59,043 nt of DNA from Pararcticibacter amylolyticus (lineage in GTDB: Bacteria > Bacteroidota > Bacteroidia > Sphingobacteriales > Sphingobacteriaceae). Below the pieces are notes generated by a model, which saw only the letters and a list, made by a program, of their open reading frames with translations, searched no databases and had not been told where the DNA came from. Of this stretch, positions 48,693-59,043 are shown in pieces; within the stretch, counting starts at the first letter, position 1; each line of letters starts with the position of its first letter. The position numbers and the translations under genes are program-made. The stretch covers positions 1-59,043 of the forward strand of contig NZ_QEAS01000023.1 of assembly GCF_003130405.1 (NCBI RefSeq), read 5' to 3'.

Positions 48693-50372
<1,680 letters not shown>

Positions 50373-50403
50373 AGCCTGAAAAGGTTTATTTTAGCATGTT
50401 TTT

Positions 50404-50946
50404 ATGATGACAAAAGACCAGTTAATCCAACAACTTAAAGCCAGCTTAACCAAACGGGGAAGCCAGAGAATCGCTGATATCTGTGTCAGTGAACCTGCTC
50501 TAATGCACGAACTGCTCCTGTTGTCTTTCCATCATGAGCCCGAAATTGCTTTCAGGGCTGCGTGGGTACTGGAAACATCGGCACTGCAATACCCGGAAGG
50601 GTTCAGGCAAAATATCCCGGTTTTTCTGCAGCGCTACGGAGACCAGTCAAATAACAGCTGCCAGCGTCACTTCAGCAAGATCATGATGCATTTGCTCAAA
50701 ACGAACGCCATTCCTGAACCATTTGATTACGCCGCTATTATCGAACCCACCTTTGTGTGGCTGGCTGATGAACAAATCCCCGTTGCCGTAAAAGCAAATT
50801 GCATGAGCATCCTTTTCATGCTCAGGAAGAAAGAGGACTGGATCGGGGAAGAACTAAGGGCGCAGATAGAGTTCCTGATGAAGGATGGTACTGCGGCGAT
50901 CCAAAGCCGTGGAAAAAAGATCCTGCATAAGCTGGCCGCAAAATAA
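50404..50946 (+). CDS. HEAT-like helical repeat protein, unknown
   Basis: This 180-residue protein is predicted all-helical and cytosolic, with repeated helix pairs ('HEPEIAFRAAWVLETSA', 'QIPVAVKANCMSILFMLRKK', 'GTAAIQSRGKKILHKLA') that resemble HEAT/ARM repeats. Such proteins usually bind other proteins. I do not recognise a specific family. A second ATG directly follows the first, so the start could be 50404 or 50407. It is divergent from the ABC-F gene and lies 42 bp before two DUF2721 genes, probably in one operon. Confidence 0.75.
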   Translation: MMTKDQLIQQLKASLTKRGSQRIADICVSEPALMHELLLLSFHHEPEIAFRAAWVLETSALQYPEGFRQNIPVFLQRYGDQSNNSCQRHFSKIMMHLLKTNAIPEPFDYAAIIEPTFVWLADEQIPVAVKANCMSILFMLRKKEDWIGEELRAQIEFLMKDGTAAIQSRGKKILHKLAAK

Positions 50947-50988
50947 ATACATTCTGTATTATTGCACTGTTAAATCACAGCCGTTACG

Positions 50989-51402
50989 ATGGAATTAACT
51001 CTTACAACCCCGGCTCTTTTATTCCCGGCTATTTCTCTGTTGCTTCTTGCTTACACCAACCGTTTTCTGGCACTGGCAAGCCTGATCCGGAACTTAAAAA
51101 ACCAGTATTCCGAAAACAAAAATCCTAACCTGCTCGGCCAGATCAGCAATATCAGGAAAAGGATTATCCAGGTGAGGAATATGCAGGCCTGCGGAATTAT
51201 GGGCTTTTTGATCTGCGTTTTGTCTATGTGGCTTCTCTATAGCAATCAGCAAAAGATCGCAGAGTATGCATTTGGCTTCAGCCTTCTGCTCCTGATGATT
51301 TCGCTGCTCATCTCCTTCAGGGAAACGCAGATCTCGGTAAAAGCACTGGAAATAGAATTGAGCGATCTCGAAGAATCAATAAGGGAAGACAAAAAGCGAT
51401 AA
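50989..51402 (+). CDS. DUF2721-family membrane protein, copy 1
   Basis: This 137-residue protein has the DUF2721 layout: a hydrophobic N-terminus ('PALLFPAISLLLLAYTNRF'), an amphipathic cytosolic segment ('NQYSENKNPNLLGQISNIRK'), and two closely spaced transmembrane helices (about 65-110). The tail is charged. Function is unknown. It is followed one base later by a paralogue and likely belongs to the operon that starts at 50404. Confidence 0.85.
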   Translation: MELTLTTPALLFPAISLLLLAYTNRFLALASLIRNLKNQYSENKNPNLLGQISNIRKRIIQVRNMQACGIMGFLICVLSMWLLYSNQQKIAEYAFGFSLLLLMISLLISFRETQISVKALEIELSDLEESIREDKKR

Positions 51403-51403
51403 G

Positions 51404-51796
51404 ATGACCCTTTCTGTCAGCACACCGATTATTCTGTTCCCGGCGATATCGCTGATCCTGCTCGCCTATACAGAAAAGTTTGTCCAGCTGGCCCGCCTGG
51501 TGCGGACATTAAAAAAGCAATATGAGAACAACAGTGCTACTCACCTGGTTGAACAGATAGAAAACCTCAAAAGGCGTATCTACCTGATAAAGAACATGCA
51601 GGCTTTCGGTACGTTAAGCTTTTTTCTCTGTATCGCCACCATCTTTCTGCTGTTCAGCTCCCTGGAAACCCTGGCATATTACACCTTCTGGATCAGCATG
51701 ATCCTGCTTATGACTGCGCTTTACCTGTCATTCAGGGAGATCCGGCTCAGTTCAGATGCCTTAAAACGCGCCCTGGACGACGAAACACCCCGGTAA
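51404..51796 (+). CDS. DUF2721-family membrane protein, copy 2
   Basis: This 130-residue paralogue of the preceding gene has the same layout and shared motifs ('TPIILFPAISLILLAYTEKF', 'VEQIENLKRRIYLIKNMQAF', then 'ALYLSFREIRLSSDALK'). The one-base gap implies coupled translation and suggests a hetero-oligomer or a recent tandem duplication. Confidence 0.85.
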   Translation: MTLSVSTPIILFPAISLILLAYTEKFVQLARLVRTLKKQYENNSATHLVEQIENLKRRIYLIKNMQAFGTLSFFLCIATIFLLFSSLETLAYYTFWISMILLMTALYLSFREIRLSSDALKRALDDETPR

Positions 51797-51923
51797 TTTC
51801 CATTCTCTGCCAACTTCCCGGCTGTCTTATCACGGCACAGCCAGCGCCTGGTGACCGGAAAATAAATCCCGCTCCGGGTTACATTTCAATCCTCATCAGG
51901 ATTAAATATAAAAACCAACCTCT

Positions 51924-52793
51924 ATGAAAGTATCAAAAAAGCTTATCCTGTTTGCAACGGCTGTTCTCATAGCTGGTTGCAGTTCTAACAAAACGGAAGA
52001 AAGTAGTGTCTACTCTGCTGCCGATTCTGCCAGCAGTGATTACCCGGCTTCAGACCCCTCTCAGAAACTGGTAAAAACGGCCAGTATGGATTTTAAAGTA
52101 TCCGATGTCAATAAAAGCAGCCGGCTTATCTCCGATAAGGCACGAAGTCTCGGCGGAATGGTTATGAACCTGGATATTGAAAGTATGGAGAACAGCAGCA
52201 AGACGATCAAGCTATCAGAGGATTCTGTGCTTCTGGTTGGTTCGTATACCACGAGGGCTGTGATGAACGTAAGGGTCCCCTCCCTCCACCTCGAAGAGTT
52301 CATCAATGAGGTAAATGCTTTATCCTCCTATCTCAACAACAGCAAGCTTCAGATTGACGACAAAAGTGTAGACTACATTGCCACACAGCTGAAGCAGCAA
52401 AGCAGGGAAAAATTACTGAAAGACGCGGGAGACAAAGCCGTTAAAAGCAGAGAAGTGACAGACCTGATCGCCAGGTCCGATGAAATGATTGATCAAAAGG
52501 CAAATACACAAAGGATTGACCAGGACGTAAAGTACAGCATGGTTGCCCTGTCCTTCTATCAGAATGAATCGGTGAGAAAAGAGAAAGCAGCAAACGGCGA
52601 CCTGTCTGCATACCGGCAGCCGTTTTATAACCGCTTCACAGATGCTCTTGAATATGGGTGGTATTTCTTACTTGAGATTGTGATCGCCCTGAGCAACCTA
52701 TGGGCAATCTTGCTGTTAGCCGCCGCAATATGGTTTATATACCGCTACCTGAAAACCAGGAACAAGCTGATCCTGCACCCTAAAGAGAATTAA
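51924..52793 (+). CDS. DUF4349-family lipoprotein with C-terminal membrane helix
   Basis: This 289-residue protein has a lipobox 'VLIAGC' (Cys19) and a DUF4349 body (about 50-225, 'KTASMDFKVSDVNKSSRLIS', then a long coiled-coil-like helix 'DYIATQLKQQSREKLLKDA'). One transmembrane helix near the C-terminus (about 250-272, 'LLLAAAIWFIYRYLK') is followed by positive residues. With both ends in a membrane it forms an envelope loop or bridge. Members have been tied to envelope stress in a loose way; no precise role is known. An AATCCT-catc-AGGATT inverted repeat lies at 51888-51903, just upstream. Confidence 0.85.
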   Translation: MKVSKKLILFATAVLIAGCSSNKTEESSVYSAADSASSDYPASDPSQKLVKTASMDFKVSDVNKSSRLISDKARSLGGMVMNLDIESMENSSKTIKLSEDSVLLVGSYTTRAVMNVRVPSLHLEEFINEVNALSSYLNNSKLQIDDKSVDYIATQLKQQSREKLLKDAGDKAVKSREVTDLIARSDEMIDQKANTQRIDQDVKYSMVALSFYQNESVRKEKAANGDLSAYRQPFYNRFTDALEYGWYFLLEIVIALSNLWAILLLAAAIWFIYRYLKTRNKLILHPKEN

Positions 52794-52813
52794 AATTCTG
52801 AAGAAGCAGAGAA

Positions 52814-53584
52814 TTATTTAAATGCAAGGACAGCGTTCAGGAGGCAGGATACGATCTCTTCCTGGCCGCTGTCCGATTTCATATAAGTCTCTTCAGAAGG
52901 ACTGCTGAGATAGCCGATTTCAGTCAGAATTGCAGGCATAGAAGCTCTGGCCAGCACCGCCAGGCTTTTTTCGTGAACGCCCCGGTCAATCCTTCCCACC
53001 TTTTTATACTCCTTTTGCAGAAGGCTGGCAAGCTGGATGCTTTTAGTGCGGAAGGCATTTTTCATCAGCGATAACAAAATGATACTCTCCGGGTCTTTTG
53101 GATCGTAGCCATTATAGTTCTTCTTGTAATCCTTTTCAAGGAGGATAGAAGCATTTTCCCGGATCGCGATGTCCTGCTCATCCAGGCGGCCAAAACCGGA
53201 AACATAGGTCTCTACCCCCCTGATTGCGGCCCTGTTCTTTTTATTGTAGGGAAGCGAGTTACAATGGATTGAGATAAAGAGGTCAGCTTTTACGTCGTTG
53301 GCCTTTTCTATACGCTCATACAAAGGGACAAACACATCCGTACTCCGCGTCAGAACCACTTTAATTCCCTTTGTTTTCAGAGCCCGGCTCAGCTTTAAAG
53401 CAACATCCAGCGCTACGTCTTTTTCATTTGTGCGGGCACTCCGGGTGCCACCGTCTTTACCGCCATGGCCTGCGTCCACAACAACTGTAAAAGTCCCTGC
53501 CGCCCCGTTTGAGGGAAGGTTATCAGCATACACCGAAAGGGATACAAAGAGAGCAAAAGCAACGTAAAAAAATAGTCTAATCAT
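52814..53584 (-). CDS. N-acetylmuramoyl-L-alanine amidase (Amidase_3 family)
   Basis: This 256-residue exported zinc amidase cleaves the bond between MurNAc and the stem peptide. The signal peptide is residues 1-21 ('MIRLFFYVAFALFVSLSVYA'). Zinc ligands are His40 ('VVDAGHGGKDGG'), Glu54 ('NEKDVAL') and His107 ('FISIHCNS'); the catalytic Glu is in 'ILTEIGYLSSPSE' (about 229). An insert with 'RGVETYVSGFGR' follows His107 as in AmiC-like enzymes. The frame is open up to 53605 but that start would be TTG, so I chose the ATG at 53584. Confidence 0.95.
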   Translation of the reverse strand: MIRLFFYVAFALFVSLSVYADNLPSNGAAGTFTVVVDAGHGGKDGGTRSARTNEKDVALDVALKLSRALKTKGIKVVLTRSTDVFVPLYERIEKANDVKADLFISIHCNSLPYNKKNRAAIRGVETYVSGFGRLDEQDIAIRENASILLEKDYKKNYNGYDPKDPESIILLSLMKNAFRTKSIQLASLLQKEYKKVGRIDRGVHEKSLAVLARASMPAILTEIGYLSSPSEETYMKSDSGQEEIVSCLLNAVLAFK

Positions 53585-53705
53585 CAAAATCTGTACTTTG
53601 GGCAAAAATTATAATTTACAAACTACCATACAAACTATTTCCGCAGATGTTTAAAATAGCTGGTATTTTCTGCCGGTTCTACGTCTGTAACGCTATAAAG
53701 TTTAC

Positions 53706-56426
53706 TTATTTCACAGTGTAACGATAAATCGTTCTCATCATATTTCCGTCCTTATCCATTCCTTCCACAACAGCCCTGTAGGGGCCTCGTCCGTCAGCGT
53801 TAAAGAATTCAACACTGGCCTTCCCTTCAGCATCTGTCACCACCGATGGATTCCAGTAGATGGTGCTCCGCAGGTCGTTCGTAACCGGCCCGCTTCTCAC
53901 CACCGCGTATTTCGGAGAGTAAAACTGCCGGGCTTTCTGATAGCCCATAGGAGTAAAGTTTATCAGATTGCTTTGGGGCAGCAGCTCCTGGAGATCCGAC
54001 AACTTCACGGGAGTTCCTTTAGGCGGTTTCTTCGTGTTTACCACCAGTACCCCGTTGGTGTTATAAAGGCGGTTTACAGTCCCCAGATCGTCGCGAAGGA
54101 ATATCTCAACAGATTCCACTTCGGAAGAATTAACCGAACTCAGGTTGATCGCATCTACCGGCATCCCGTTCAGGAATACCTGGACAGGTGTCCTGTTTCC
54201 CGAATTATAATCCCTCGTGATATAGAAGTTTTCTTCCGAGAACATCATCCCCATCGTACCTCCCTTTAAACAATCGAGAAGAAACGGGCAGCTTTGAAAA
54301 CGATCCCCGGGGATCAGCTGGTCAGGCATGGCGCTAAGACCGCTCAATGCCGGATAATCCTTATGGCTCGGCTTCGGAGTGGCCCGGCTCTTAATCACAA
54401 CCTCCTGAAGCACCACAGCCGTCCTGTATACTTTTTTGCTGTTCGCCAGGTAGGGGTTCAGCGTACTGTCGATATTGATCATCACATCACCCTGGTTCAC
54501 ATTCGGAGTAGCTCCCGGCAAAACATCGCCGTCCACCATGATCATCATGTTGCGCGAATTGACATTCCCCCGGGCACTAAGGATCGCCTTTGAAGAGTCG
54601 GGAAATACCAGGTTGGTAAACCTGAACTTGCCCTCTGCATTTGTCTGGGCACTTGCCGACACCCCTTTTTCAGGAACAATGAACTGAACTACTCCCTTAT
54701 TCACCGGCAGCCCGTTCTTCATCCTCAGTGTTCCTGATATCTCAATGCCCTGTTCCGGTAAATAGCTCACTGCAGGCACTTTATCGTCGAGGATGTCGCG
54801 GTAAGAATAAGACCGGTATCCCTGCGTCAGCATGAGAACATCAAGATCAGCTATTTTCTTTTCATCCATCTGGTGGAAGTAGTAATTCGGCTTTTCAACA
54901 TACCCCTTAAGATCTGAAGAGAGAAGCAGGGAGCTCATGATACTGGTTTCAGAATCCTCGTCATAAGGCACTTTACTCTCGTCTACAACCGCTACAGAAT
55001 AAGACCCTTCCAGCGGTTGGCCCGTATATTTTGCAGTGATCCCCAGCTTTACCTTCTGGCGGGTCGTGTAAGCCGGTTTATCCGAATTCATGGTAATTCC
55101 CGGTGTATTCGGATGGGTAATAAAAACAAGGCGCTCTGCTACCGGAGATCCCGTAGCCGTAAAAAGAGTAATCTCTACCACCCCTGAAGGAAACTTATCT
55201 TTTGGAATAGCAGCGTTATGTACGGCACTCTGAAGACGGGTCTGAGCTGCATAGCAGGTTACCCCCCCGCTCCTCGCGATAATATAAAAAGGCTCATCCT
55301 GGTGCCGCTCGAGGTAGGCAGGTGTGGCAGCGATCCTGACCGCAATATTATCCGGTGCCATGGCATTCACAGCGAGGCCAATGCCGGATGTGCGCGGTTT
55401 CGGAAGATCGTAAGATGCCTTCGATCCGTCAGCAAAGGTGACATTCGCTTTATATGTCTTCTCCGCATCGGGAGTAAAGTTCAGCATCCCCATTCCGAGG
55501 TGGCGCGAATTAAACTTTGCCACGGTTGTACCGCTGTTGTCGGTAACAGTACCGCTTGCCTCTATTCCCATCCCGTTAGCCCTGATGGCTTTAAACGCAA
55601 TATTCGAACTTACCCCCGAAATAAGCCTTCCCCCCTCGGGAAAAAACTGCATATCAGGCTTGCTGAATGCAGGCTGAACAGAGAACGTACTTGTCAGATC
55701 CTTCTGATCGCTTACCGAAATCACCGTTTCAAGCTGCGGCGTTTTTACCGGTATCGAGGCAAGGACGGCATTTACCACGAGGTAACCGCTCTGATCGGTC
55801 GTTCCGCGGCCTTTACTCAAAGTTTCAAGGCCGGCAATGATCCGCCAGTTTACCTTCTTATTTACGTAGGGTTTCCCGGTTTCATCCTTAAAAAGAACTT
55901 TTGCATTAACCTTATATCCCTTATCAGCGGGTTCGCCCTGCAGGGAAATATGGGTGGTAAGTTCCTTATTCATGGTGTTCCCTATGTTGATCGTTTTAGT
56001 GAAGAAATAGGCGTCCGCAAAATTGAGCATCCAGCGGGTATATGCCCTGAACTGGTAACTTCCCTGCCTGAAGTTCATCGGGGAAAGCGTCAGGCTGCCG
56101 GAGGCCACACTGTTCCGAACGGGTAACCTCAGGGTTTCTATAATAGAATCCCGGCTGTTACTGATGTCCACATAGACCACTTTGCTCAGCTGGGAAGGCA
56201 GGTGAAGATTACTGGTCAGATAAGTCTTAAACCAGATCGTATCCCCCACAGCATAATAAGGTTTGTCGAAATGTACGTGCACCTTTTCCAGCGGCCGGCC
56301 CTCTGTAATTGCCTGCGCCTTTTCTACAATCGAGTTAATACTGATCGTATCTGGCTGCGAAAAAACAGAAAAACTGATGGTGAATATGAATGCAAACAGC
56401 GAAGTCAAAAATTTATTGGTATTCAT
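53706..56426 (-). CDS. Exported MG2-domain protein with TonB-plug-like domain
   Basis: This 906-residue protein has a signal peptide (residues 1-23, ends 'SFSVFSQ'). Near the N-terminus lies an MG2-type macroglobulin domain ('HVHFDKPYYAVGDTIWFKTY', about 48-150); several further beta-sandwich domains follow, including a carboxypeptidase-like one ('GTLRMKNGLPVNKGVVQFIV', about 560). A plug-like segment (about 705-830, 'VESVEIFLRDDLGTVNRLYN', 'GVLVVNTKKP') recalls TonB-dependent receptors, but no barrel follows. Such chimeras are widespread in Bacteroidota with unknown function, probably in the periplasm or at the outer membrane. It lies 121 bp upstream of the amidase gene on the same strand. 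Confidence 0.85.
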   Translation of the reverse strand: MNTNKFLTSLFAFIFTISFSVFSQPDTISINSIVEKAQAITEGRPLEKVHVHFDKPYYAVGDTIWFKTYLTSNLHLPSQLSKVVYVDISNSRDSIIETLRLPVRNSVASGSLTLSPMNFRQGSYQFRAYTRWMLNFADAYFFTKTINIGNTMNKELTTHISLQGEPADKGYKVNAKVLFKDETGKPYVNKKVNWRIIAGLETLSKGRGTTDQSGYLVVNAVLASIPVKTPQLETVISVSDQKDLTSTFSVQPAFSKPDMQFFPEGGRLISGVSSNIAFKAIRANGMGIEASGTVTDNSGTTVAKFNSRHLGMGMLNFTPDAEKTYKANVTFADGSKASYDLPKPRTSGIGLAVNAMAPDNIAVRIAATPAYLERHQDEPFYIIARSGGVTCYAAQTRLQSAVHNAAIPKDKFPSGVVEITLFTATGSPVAERLVFITHPNTPGITMNSDKPAYTTRQKVKLGITAKYTGQPLEGSYSVAVVDESKVPYDEDSETSIMSSLLLSSDLKGYVEKPNYYFHQMDEKKIADLDVLMLTQGYRSYSYRDILDDKVPAVSYLPEQGIEISGTLRMKNGLPVNKGVVQFIVPEKGVSASAQTNAEGKFRFTNLVFPDSSKAILSARGNVNSRNMMIMVDGDVLPGATPNVNQGDVMINIDSTLNPYLANSKKVYRTAVVLQEVVIKSRATPKPSHKDYPALSGLSAMPDQLIPGDRFQSCPFLLDCLKGGTMGMMFSEENFYITRDYNSGNRTPVQVFLNGMPVDAINLSSVNSSEVESVEIFLRDDLGTVNRLYNTNGVLVVNTKKPPKGTPVKLSDLQELLPQSNLINFTPMGYQKARQFYSPKYAVVRSGPVTNDLRSTIYWNPSVVTDAEGKASVEFFNADGRGPYRAVVEGMDKDGNMMRTIYRYTVK

Positions 56427-56553
56427 CTAATGTCCCCTGATCTTCTAATTGAATGGTAAATATATTCATTTCCGGTTTGCGGGGGCAAGCCGGAACAATT
56501 CTTTTACATTTTTTAACGAAGATCATACAAAGCCCCTTGCCGGTGGACCGGAG

Positions 56554-57690
56554 CTAGAGCAGCAGCGACTCGATCCGGTATGCGGCCACCATCTCAGCAG
56601 CGTCCGACCACGAAAACACCGTAAAATGGCCGTCCTGAGACGCAACCAGCGCAAGGGCATCCCGCTGATCATACACAAACTGGGCCGCCGACAGGTGCCG
56701 CGTCCCTCCTATTTGTCCGGGGTGCACCACACTGACTGTGCCTCCCTGCACCGGCTCTATCAGCGAGATAAAACCGATATCATCATTTCCCCTCTTCCTG
56801 GCAATTTTGGCACCGAAAGCCAGCAGTTCATGCCGCCTGTTAATAACAGTAGCTCCGTCAACGGCTGTAAGCCCTGCGAGATGATCCACTTCCCGGTTCA
56901 GTGAACTTTGCCGGTCAGCCCCATGCAGGTCGCTGTTCCTGGTCAACGAGGCCAGTCCCGAGAATGCCGGCGAGATAGAATATTGAATAGGATGAATGAT
57001 AGAATTGCGCCATGCTTCGGTATCGTCAGGCACGATCAATAGTGCTCCTCCGTGCCGGTGAGAACGCATGGAAACAGCCAGCTGGATCAGGATGTTTATC
57101 GGATCGCTCCAGTCACCGGGCGCTTCCAGGTCAAGCAGTATCTTCAGCAAGGGAGGGCAATCAGACAGCAGCGTTCCCTTATTATCTATTATTTTCACCT
57201 GGTCGCCCTTCAGCACCGCCACGTTCGAGAATTTACCAAAACCACATACACGCCTGTGTTTAATCACCAGCAGACCTGGTTCGGATACATCCAGGACAAA
57301 ACAAAGGTTAGGAATCTTCAGGGTGGTGCCCCATATAAACAACTCGCCGTCTTCCAGGCAAACACCCAGATGAATGCCGGCGCGCTCCAATCCCGGTGCC
57401 AGTTTGGTTAGAATGCCAGTAGTCAAAGGCATCCGGTGCTCAAACAAAAGCGGGTCACCGGCCTGTTCCGGAGTAAGAAACGCAATAGAGATCTTCGGGG
57501 GATTCCCTTCCTCCTTCCGCAGGCTGGCCCAGAACGCCGCATCAATGATCGCTTCAATCACCTGCGCCGAAGGTATGCTGGCAACATCGCCCGTATCCTT
57601 CAGGGATGCAGTTTTCAGATTCTCTTTGAAATGTGTTTCTATTGCAGCCGCAACCATTCGTGCCGGTTTATATGTAGCCTGATAATTCAT
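56554..57690 (-). CDS. DACNV sensor-domain protein (diadenylate-cyclase-like)
   Basis: This 378-residue cytosolic protein has the features of the DACNV group, relatives of DisA-N diadenylate cyclases proposed to act as nucleotide sensors. The C-terminal part (about 205-360) shows 'SHRHGGALLIVP', 'VDGATVINRRHELLAFGAKI' and 'GGTRHLSAAQF', which line up with the cyclase DGA and GTRHR motifs. The third residue of RHR is Leu333 and the later SEE-like motif is 'SQDG', so activity is uncertain. The N-terminal half is a separate alpha/beta region. It follows a small gene by 8 bp, downstream of ddl. Confidence 0.8.
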   Translation of the reverse strand: MNYQATYKPARMVAAAIETHFKENLKTASLKDTGDVASIPSAQVIEAIIDAAFWASLRKEEGNPPKISIAFLTPEQAGDPLLFEHRMPLTTGILTKLAPGLERAGIHLGVCLEDGELFIWGTTLKIPNLCFVLDVSEPGLLVIKHRRVCGFGKFSNVAVLKGDQVKIIDNKGTLLSDCPPLLKILLDLEAPGDWSDPINILIQLAVSMRSHRHGGALLIVPDDTEAWRNSIIHPIQYSISPAFSGLASLTRNSDLHGADRQSSLNREVDHLAGLTAVDGATVINRRHELLAFGAKIARKRGNDDIGFISLIEPVQGGTVSVVHPGQIGGTRHLSAAQFVYDQRDALALVASQDGHFTVFSWSDAAEMVAAYRIESLLL

Positions 57691-57698
57691 ACTAAATG

Positions 57699-57926
57699 TT
57701 AAGAGAATGAACTTTTGAAGGCAACCAGCACCTTCAGAAATGTATCACGGTCAAGATCAACCTCCGCAGGTTTCTCCGGCCGCTGAGGATTTCCGTTTTT
57801 GTAATGCATTGGAAAGAGACAAATGAATTCCTGCTGCGATATTTCGTCACCCAGCCAGGGATGCTGCCTGTAAATCTCAATCAGCTTCATCTCAAACTGC
57901 TTTTCCTTAATAAAATCATTCGCCAT
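57699..57926 (-). CDS. Small protein of the ddl/DACNV cluster
   Basis: This 75-residue protein (from the ATG at 57926, 'MANDFIKEKQFEMKLIEIYR') has one or two helices, a Pro/Lys-rich loop ('NGNPQRPEKPAEVDLDRDTF') and a last amphipathic helix. I do not recognise it. The frame is open to 57998, but the extra 24 residues (with two Cys and several aromatics) look unlike coding sequence. The 8-bp gap to the DACNV gene suggests tight co-expression and perhaps a complex. Confidence 0.7.
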   Translation of the reverse strand: MANDFIKEKQFEMKLIEIYRQHPWLGDEISQQEFICLFPMHYKNGNPQRPEKPAEVDLDRDTFLKVLVAFKSSFS

Positions 57927-58035
57927 ATCAGAACTCAATAGAATATTTCCCGGCAAATTTCTAAAAAAGAGATCACAAAACCATCGCCCGGATGTCACTT
58001 TCGCTCCCCGTAGTAGACCGGTTGAGCAGCAAGCT

Positions 58036-59022
58036 CTATGGCAATATCATTTCGAGCAATTCAGTATAAAAGTCCTGGATAGTCCTTCCTGCTGCCCTTA
58101 CCTGCTGCGGGATCAAACTGCCTTCAGTCTGCCCCGGAACTGTATTCACCTCGATAAAATAAAAATGATCCGTTTCGTTCTCCAGGATATAGTCAATGCG
58201 AACCACGCCGCTGCAATTCAGCTTCGTGTAGGCGTCTGTCACGATCTTCTGCACCCGCGAAAGCTCTTCCTCTGTCATCCGTCCCGGCGTAATCTCATCG
58301 GTAATCCCCGCTGTATATTTCGCTTCAAAATCAAAGAACTCCTTCGAGCTCACAATTTCAGTAGCCGGAAGCACCTGAATACCTTCTTTTCCCTTGTACA
58401 CCCCTATGGTAAATTCCCTGCCGCCAATAAACTCTTCCACCAGCACCTGCGATCCTTCCTTAAAAGCCCGTTCGAGCGCAGCAGGCAGCTCCTCAGCAGT
58501 CTTCACCTTGCTCATACCAATGCTGCTTCCCCCGTTATTCGGTTTCACAAAAAGAGGAAGCTTCAGGCTTTCCGTAATCTGTACCGCTGCCTCCGGGCTA
58601 TTCTCAAAAAGCATGGCCGATTTAGCCACATACAGATCTTTCACCCCATCAACAATCGCCTTTGTATAGCCTTTGTTCATGGTAATGGCAGAAGTAGCCG
58701 CATCACAGCTGGTATAAGGAATACCGATCATATCAAAATACCCCTGCAGTTTTCCATCCTCTCCGGGAGATCCGTGGAGCCCGATGAACACTCCGTCGAA
58801 GCGCACCACGTGATTCTGAACAGTCAAAGAAAAGTCGTTCTTATCGACAGAATGCTTCACGGCATTATCATCTACATAATACCAGCTCTCAGGCGTAATA
58901 ATGATCTTATAAACATCAAATTTCTCACGGTCAATATTCTTGTCGATCACTTCCGCACTTTGCAATGAAATCACCGACTCTCCGGTAAAGCCACCGGTTA
59001 CCAGGGCAATAGTCTTCTTCAT
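58036..59022 (-). CDS. ddl: D-alanine--D-alanine ligase
   Basis: This 328-residue cytosolic ATP-grasp enzyme makes D-Ala-D-Ala for the peptidoglycan stem peptide. The N-terminal 'VTGGFTGESVISLQSA' holds the catalytic Glu. ATP-grasp motifs follow: 'VKPNNGGSSIGMSKV', 'VEEFIGGREFTIGVYKG', 'FDFEAKYTAG' and, at the active site, 'FIEVNTVPGQTEGSLIPQQ'. Length is normal. The start 'MKKTIALVTGG' matches the family. It is probably the first gene of a cluster with the small protein and the DACNV protein. A TATCTTTG box lies only 5 bp from the ATG. Confidence 0.97.
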   Translation of the reverse strand: MKKTIALVTGGFTGESVISLQSAEVIDKNIDREKFDVYKIIITPESWYYVDDNAVKHSVDKNDFSLTVQNHVVRFDGVFIGLHGSPGEDGKLQGYFDMIGIPYTSCDAATSAITMNKGYTKAIVDGVKDLYVAKSAMLFENSPEAAVQITESLKLPLFVKPNNGGSSIGMSKVKTAEELPAALERAFKEGSQVLVEEFIGGREFTIGVYKGKEGIQVLPATEIVSSKEFFDFEAKYTAGITDEITPGRMTEEELSRVQKIVTDAYTKLNCSGVVRIDYILENETDHFYFIEVNTVPGQTEGSLIPQQVRAAGRTIQDFYTELLEMILP

Positions 59023-59027
59023 GGCGG

Positions 59028-59035
59028 CAAAGATA
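59028..59035 (-). promoter_or_regulatory. -7 element of ddl (TATCTTTG)
   Basis: TATCTTTG matches TAnnTTTG exactly and ends 5 bp before the ddl ATG at 59022. Transcription would begin at or within a few bases of the start codon, giving a leaderless or nearly leaderless mRNA. The -33 element would be outside the window. Confidence 0.6.
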
Positions 59036-59043
59036 CAATTTAA

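Follow-up and report, generated by a model that had tools for sequence, protein, structure and literature searches.

The question raised by this locus is whether a protein that resembles a diadenylate cyclase (DAC), and in which the second arginine of the RHR motif is replaced, makes a nucleotide product, binds a nucleotide or does neither, and which of the genes around it take part. The window, by which we mean the whole stretch of 59,043 nucleotides that was analysed, takes up bases 1 to 59043 of a Pararcticibacter amylolyticus contig that is 88869 bases long. An earlier note on this DNA had described a cluster of ddl, a 75-aa open reading frame (ORF) and a 378-aa ORF, and this cluster exists with the coordinates, strand and order described there, as does the identity assigned to Ddl. 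On the minus strand the order is ddl, the 75-aa ORF and the DACNV gene, with gaps of 109 and 8 nt, and the features are as follows.

58036..59022, minus strand: ddl, D-alanine--D-alanine ligase (NF002527, 328.9 bits, cut-off 310), a neighbour, probably outside the unit
57699..57926, minus strand: 75-aa protein, ORF 8 nt upstream of DACNV
56554..57690, minus strand: DACNV-DAC protein of the short clade, 378 aa, with DGA, GTRHL and SQDG motifs (Pfam PF21751 and AlphaFold2 model)
57322..57585, minus strand: DACNV domain, residues 36-123 (Pfam)
56557..57165, minus strand: C-terminal DAC domain, residues about 176-378 (predicted fold; coordinates computed from residue numbers)
56851..56859, minus strand: DGA motif, residues 278-280 (coordinates computed from residue numbers)
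56692..56706, minus strand: GTRHL, residues 329-333, with Leu333 for the second Arg of RHR
56629..56640, minus strand: SQDG, residues 351-354, where other DACs have SEE

The 378-aa ORF, a single-copy gene in its own genome, matches the DACNV family of Pfam (PF21751) well above cut-off (113 bits against 27, E 7.8e-33), and it was correctly named a DACNV protein in the earlier note. The DACNV domain itself is already known, from Pfam and, reportedly, from a 2023 review of DAC architectures by Galperin. The protein gave no NCBIfam or PADLOC match at the limits used, no Pfam match to a DNA-binding or membrane part, and no sequence relative in the PDB by single-sequence or profile search, four profile matches at E 0.22-0.38 having the look of chance. 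Its match to the Pfam DAC family (PF02457), over residues 329-354, falls below cut-off at 17.9 against 27 bits, and the family is likewise sub-threshold in each of the four short proteins scanned (window, L122, L033 and L159) and the three long DACNV proteins scanned (L074, L075 and L083). The DAC reading of the C-terminal half is sound despite this missed cut-off, since structure match and profile comparison both find the relation. The AlphaFold2 model of the 378-aa protein, made with 55 sequences, is confident (pLDDT 86, pTM 0.82), and in this predicted model residues 176-378 align with Mycobacterium tuberculosis DisA bound to c-di-AMP (9y9y_D) at Z 14.8 (rmsd 2.2, 133 residues aligned), with Thermotoga maritima DisA (3c1y) at Z 13.9 and with ATP-bound CdaA (8c4o) at Z 11.3. 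When a profile of the C-terminal half, built from 109 rows of short and long proteins together, was compared by hhalign with 21 CdaA-type proteins from the same order, the relation was found at E 2.2e-5 and a probability of 76%, pairing DGA, GTRHL and SQD with HDGA, GLRHR and SEE of CdaA. HDGA and GLRHRA are present in all 21 of these CdaA-type proteins, and a strict VSEE in 17.

The short protein has its predicted DAC fold, DGA and an Arg-His pair in common with DisA and CdaA, but differs from them in having GTRHL for G(T/L)RHR, SQDG for SEE and a longer motif spacing. The SEE motif is a DAC signature. The retention of DGA and GTRH, and the Leu in place of the second Arg, had been noticed before and hold; the lack of a SEE-like motif, claimed at the same time, is correct in that SEE is absent and incorrect in that the position is not empty, as it reads S351-Q-D-G. 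To place these residues in the family, every short DACNV ORF was counted in the 192 loci given, of which 186 have one and the remaining six hold long proteins or a piece; the 186 ORFs merge to 135 distinct genes by identity of their last 250 residues. The 135-gene set represents the loci supplied to the count and is no random genome sample, the earlier ortholog sets having been selected from larger ones (24 out of 39 order loci besides the own one, and 54 out of 80 named loci), the 40-locus order set consisting of the own locus and 39 of 119 other places, and some genomes being present twice across order loci and named loci. Asp278, Gly279, Arg331, His332, Ser351, Gln352 and Asp353 are invariant in the 135 distinct short genes, Ala280 is kept in 132 and Gly354 in 134, and residue 330 is Thr in 130 and Ser in 5. 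Residue 333 is Leu in 109, Phe in 23, Met in two and Val in one, and is Arg in none. Within the 40 order loci, Asp278, Gly279, Arg331, His332 and SQDG are present throughout, with Leu (36), Met (2) or Phe (2) at residue 333. These motif residues rank among the most conserved of the protein. Judged from the aligned sequences, the change from RHR to RHL is no decay, because Asp-Gly, Arg-His and Ser-Gln-Asp never vary and the second Arg is always replaced by Leu, Phe, Met or Val.

Comparison with the long DACNV-DAC proteins, which have about 425-485 aa and occur both in the same order and in the G866 phylum sample, separates the two departures from the classical motifs. Both groups have the DACNV plus DAC layout and SQDG, but the long proteins retain GTRHR or GMRHR whereas the short clade has RH(L/F/M/V). 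Among the long proteins of the order, all 12 places fetched, out of 20 seen, carry GTRHR and SQDG, with Val (9), Leu (2) or Met (1) and never Ala as the third residue of DGA; in the G866 phylum sample all four long proteins, one of them a fragment, have RHR and SQDG, and three of the four also have DGA. Since relatives that bear RHR also carry SQDG, the latter reads as a mark of DACNV-linked DAC domains and no private loss of the short clade, and it is the loss of the second Arg that, as far as seen, marks the short clade alone. The same residue distinguishes the short clade from the PF21751 proteins ('Probable sensor domain DACNV'), with which it shares a DAC-like domain placed after a DACNV domain that scores above cut-off. 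In a tree of 45 sequences, 31 short and 14 long proteins are split by a branch with an SH-aLRT of 99, for which the program warns of long branches. Eleven intact long proteins (L073-L083) keep RHR and lack the Ala of DGA, a mirror image of the short clade, and at L072 (G128) a long DACNV gene is broken into separate ORFs, one of 155 and one of 213 aa.

In 120 of the 151 order genomes, its own included, the short protein has a full-length match, those in the others being at 47-63% identity, which places its conservation far beyond chance; the 31 genomes without it are 26 of genus g2 and five others. Each of the 151 genomes, including those 31, has one canonical DAC above cut-off, so that synthesis appears to be covered elsewhere, and in the own genome this is a CdaA-type protein with DGA, GLRHRA and SEET, encoded on a contig other than that of DACNV. 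Outside the order, a class sample gave a match in 16 of 395 genomes, and the best 80 of at least 490 named loci include Pedobacter, Arcticibacter, Chitinophaga, Rufibacter, Sporocytophaga and one metagenome-assembled genome (MAG) titled Acidobacteria. Of 199 genomes from the phylum of this MAG, 12 have a DACNV domain, and in ten of these, the MAG itself among them, it belongs to a short protein. An origin in a phage or other mobile element was considered and set aside: a tblastn search of plasmids with the short and one long DACNV protein gave no match, no relatives were found among the 108 viral stretches that matched a pattern, and viral structures gave no match at E 0.001.

We propose, with a probability of about 0.5, that the short DACNV protein binds a nucleotide, ATP or c-di-AMP, instead of carrying out diadenylate synthesis of the normal kind. 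The C-terminal DAC domain would keep the Asp-Gly of DGA and Thr-Arg-His, the second Arg being replaced by a non-polar side chain, and would hold an adenine nucleotide, either ATP or c-di-AMP made by the one canonical CdaA-type cyclase of the cell. The DACNV region or a contact with another protein would then relay occupancy, and in some genomes the 75-aa protein is the best candidate for such a contact. Binding instead of synthesis is probable because a non-polar residue replaces the signature Arg in every relative examined, and a nucleotide-binding pseudo-cyclase is the best reading because the pocket motifs are kept, one Arg is lost and a full CdaA-type cyclase exists in the cell. The suggestion, offered before this analysis, that the protein may have a cyclic dinucleotide as its ligand and not as its product fits these observations as far as sequence can take it. 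It also agrees with contacts reported for Staphylococcus aureus DacA with ApCpp (PMC6368335), in which the ribose is held by the Asp and Gly of DGA and the phosphates by the Thr that precedes RHR. The equivalents in the short clade are D278 and G279, present in all 135 distinct genes, and T330, which is Thr or, in five genes, Ser. A doubt about binding is raised by M. tuberculosis DacA, since changing RHR to AAA is reported to abolish both synthesis and ATP binding (PMC3328451); that mutant, however, changes all three residues and the short clade only the third. S. aureus DacA is also described as having an adenine-stacking Tyr (PMC6368335), in addition to the residues compared here.

The strictness with which DGA, RH and SQD are kept is compatible with an enzyme as well, and the first alternative is a working diadenylate cyclase that tolerates a hydrophobic residue for the second Arg or makes a different product from ATP. 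The invariance of Asp278, Arg331, His332 and Ser-Gln-Asp over 135 genes agrees with this, and SQDG is evidently compatible with RHR in the long proteins, three of the four in the G866 phylum sample (one of the four a fragment) combining DGA, RHR and SQDG. We nevertheless consider an active variant unlikely, given that a triple RHR to AAA mutant of Mycobacterium bovis CdaM is reported to have lost synthesis (PMC13022847), as did the M. tuberculosis DacA mutant, and that a canonical DAC is already present in each of the 151 sampled genomes.

A second alternative is that the protein is a pseudo-DAC that regulates CdaA, poisoning or modulating the active dimer by pairing with it head to head. DACs are reported to function as such pairs, and inhibition of CdaA by GlmM has been proposed to work by blocking this pairing (PMC8573169). 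The canonical DAC and the short DACNV protein do occur together in 120 of 151 genomes, but as the canonical DAC is in all 151, co-occurrence with CdaA says nothing specific, and the canonical DAC is kept in the 31 genomes, mostly of genus g2, from which the short protein is absent. As cdaA and DACNV moreover lie on different contigs in the own genome, we regard such regulation as distinctly improbable.

The DACNV region is possibly a degenerate second DAC fold. Residues 1-178 predicted alone (pLDDT 85.5) have DACs as all of their best 39 structural entries, at Z 6.1-7.3 over 105-112 residues with the next entry at Z 3.0, where the structure tool warns that Z under 8 can reflect a common arrangement, and Foldseek ranks three mycoplasma DAC chains first at E 0.08-0.16. 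Profile comparison of the DACNV region with either the C-terminal half or CdaA, carried out three times, gave no sign of an internal duplication (probability 0.1-0.4%, next to 0.7% for an unrelated control, the 75-aa family against CdaA, and 76% for the positive control, the C-terminal half against CdaA). The resemblance of the DACNV region to a DAC fold is best called suggestive only. A fuller version, which we regard as a tentative and rather unlikely extension, is a fused tandem DAC whose first fold is fully degenerate and whose second is one Arg short of catalysis, the two pairing head to head as an internal pseudo-dimer with c-di-AMP or ATP as its ligand. Such a protein would be a dedicated receptor born from a cyclase fold, retained both among Bacteroidota and in a sample led by Acidobacteriota, and some genomes would add a lineage-specific partner, the 75-aa protein.

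As to that partner, homologues of the 75-aa protein occur in 22 of 151 order genomes (21 of genus g4 and the own genome) and in the genome of L084, which alone has the gene among 20 short-DACNV genomes tested apart, most of them from other families or phyla. In five g4 genomes the 75-aa gene follows DACNV on one strand, its start lying 18-24 nt downstream, placements that are probably one event because the far-side genes are shared, and in the own genome and that of L084 it ends 8 and 28 nt upstream. The gene thus adjoins DACNV in 7 of the 23 genomes holding it, in two opposite orders, and lies away from it in the other 16 (14 inspected; G075 and G025 judged by coordinates only). The window protein has no Pfam match, and a scan of 13 members of its family gave two families with one stray weak match each (E 0.11 and 0.47). 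Since two separate side-by-side placements would be unlikely by chance among several thousand genes, by our estimate, a partnership of the 75-aa protein with DACNV is plausible but unproven. The tie drawn in the earlier note is in part upheld, the adjacency recurring in the five g4 genomes and L084.

The position of DACNV beside a cell-wall gene, by comparison, looks mostly accidental. Conservation of the neighbourhood had been suggested as a check, and it separates the two neighbours, the 75-aa gene recurring with DACNV as described and ddl failing to do so: ddl is near DACNV in none of the other 39 loci from the order, each covering up to 12 kb, and beside it in one of 80 named loci (the best 80 of at least 490), namely L084, which has the same gene order as the window and is the closest named relative among the matches listed (64%). 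The ddl link is on these counts a local arrangement, we reject ddl as a functional partner, and the connection to wall precursors drawn in the earlier note is not supported. DACNV neighbours otherwise vary from one genome group to another, with no output partner common to the groups that were compared. Among 14 loci of the G866 phylum sample no DACNV neighbour recurs beyond locus pairs, the DACNV ORF being lost in tiling in four (L218, L222, L223 and L225). This absence of a conserved partner or output would agree with a structural or vestigial protein that has no nucleotide role, but few residues of the protein are as conserved as those of the motifs and the gene is kept across most of the order, and we give this reading very little weight. 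That ddl, the 75-aa protein and DACNV form a unit sensing cell-wall precursors is scarcely credible, the shared strand, the short gaps, the L084 order and the PASTA- and MltG-like genes divergent from ddl beyond the window being outweighed by the near absence of ddl from the other loci compared.

Several other features of the own locus (L032, G000:C76) were observed. Past the window end, at 59482-62875, the genes divergent from ddl are by eye PASTA-, MltG-, thioesterase- and YihY-like, so that the wall context belongs to ddl. After DACNV, a 906-aa protein is encoded at 53706-56426 on the minus strand, with Big_1 above cut-off and a weak MG2; of the 80 named DACNV loci, the best of at least 490, 37 have a homologue, in differing places and orientations, possibly a second, looser DACNV association. 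Between the two genes, at 56470-56495, lies an inverted repeat of 11 pairs that is terminator-like on the plus strand. Adjacent proteins of 137 and 130 aa, at 50989-51402 and 51404-51796 on the plus strand, are alike by eye and probably a tandem duplication. No Rfam families were found at 50000-59043, and a Bacteroidota-type promoter pattern had no match on the L032 minus strand. Sigma-70-like sites numbered 5 against 2.6 (sd 1.8) in shuffles, and terminator-like sites 6 against 2.6 (sd 1.6); neither count enters the readings above.

No papers were found in the literature search under the term 'DACNV'. Loss of the second Arg throughout the clade, the SQDG signature and the possible DAC nature of the DACNV region were not met in a limited, mostly general search, and an earlier description of the Arg loss is possible; nor was the 75-aa partner met in that general search, of which the 75-aa protein was no subject. 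To our knowledge, few c-di-AMP receptors have been described in Bacteroidota. Cyclic di-AMP is reported to be essential for growth of Porphyromonas gingivalis (PMC9259658). If the proposed nucleotide-binding role is true, the short DACNV proteins, in which the pocket motifs are kept and one signature Arg is lost in every member examined, would provide a clean model for the passage of a second-messenger enzyme to a sensor, and a single residue, 333, would be enough as an entry point for testing that change.
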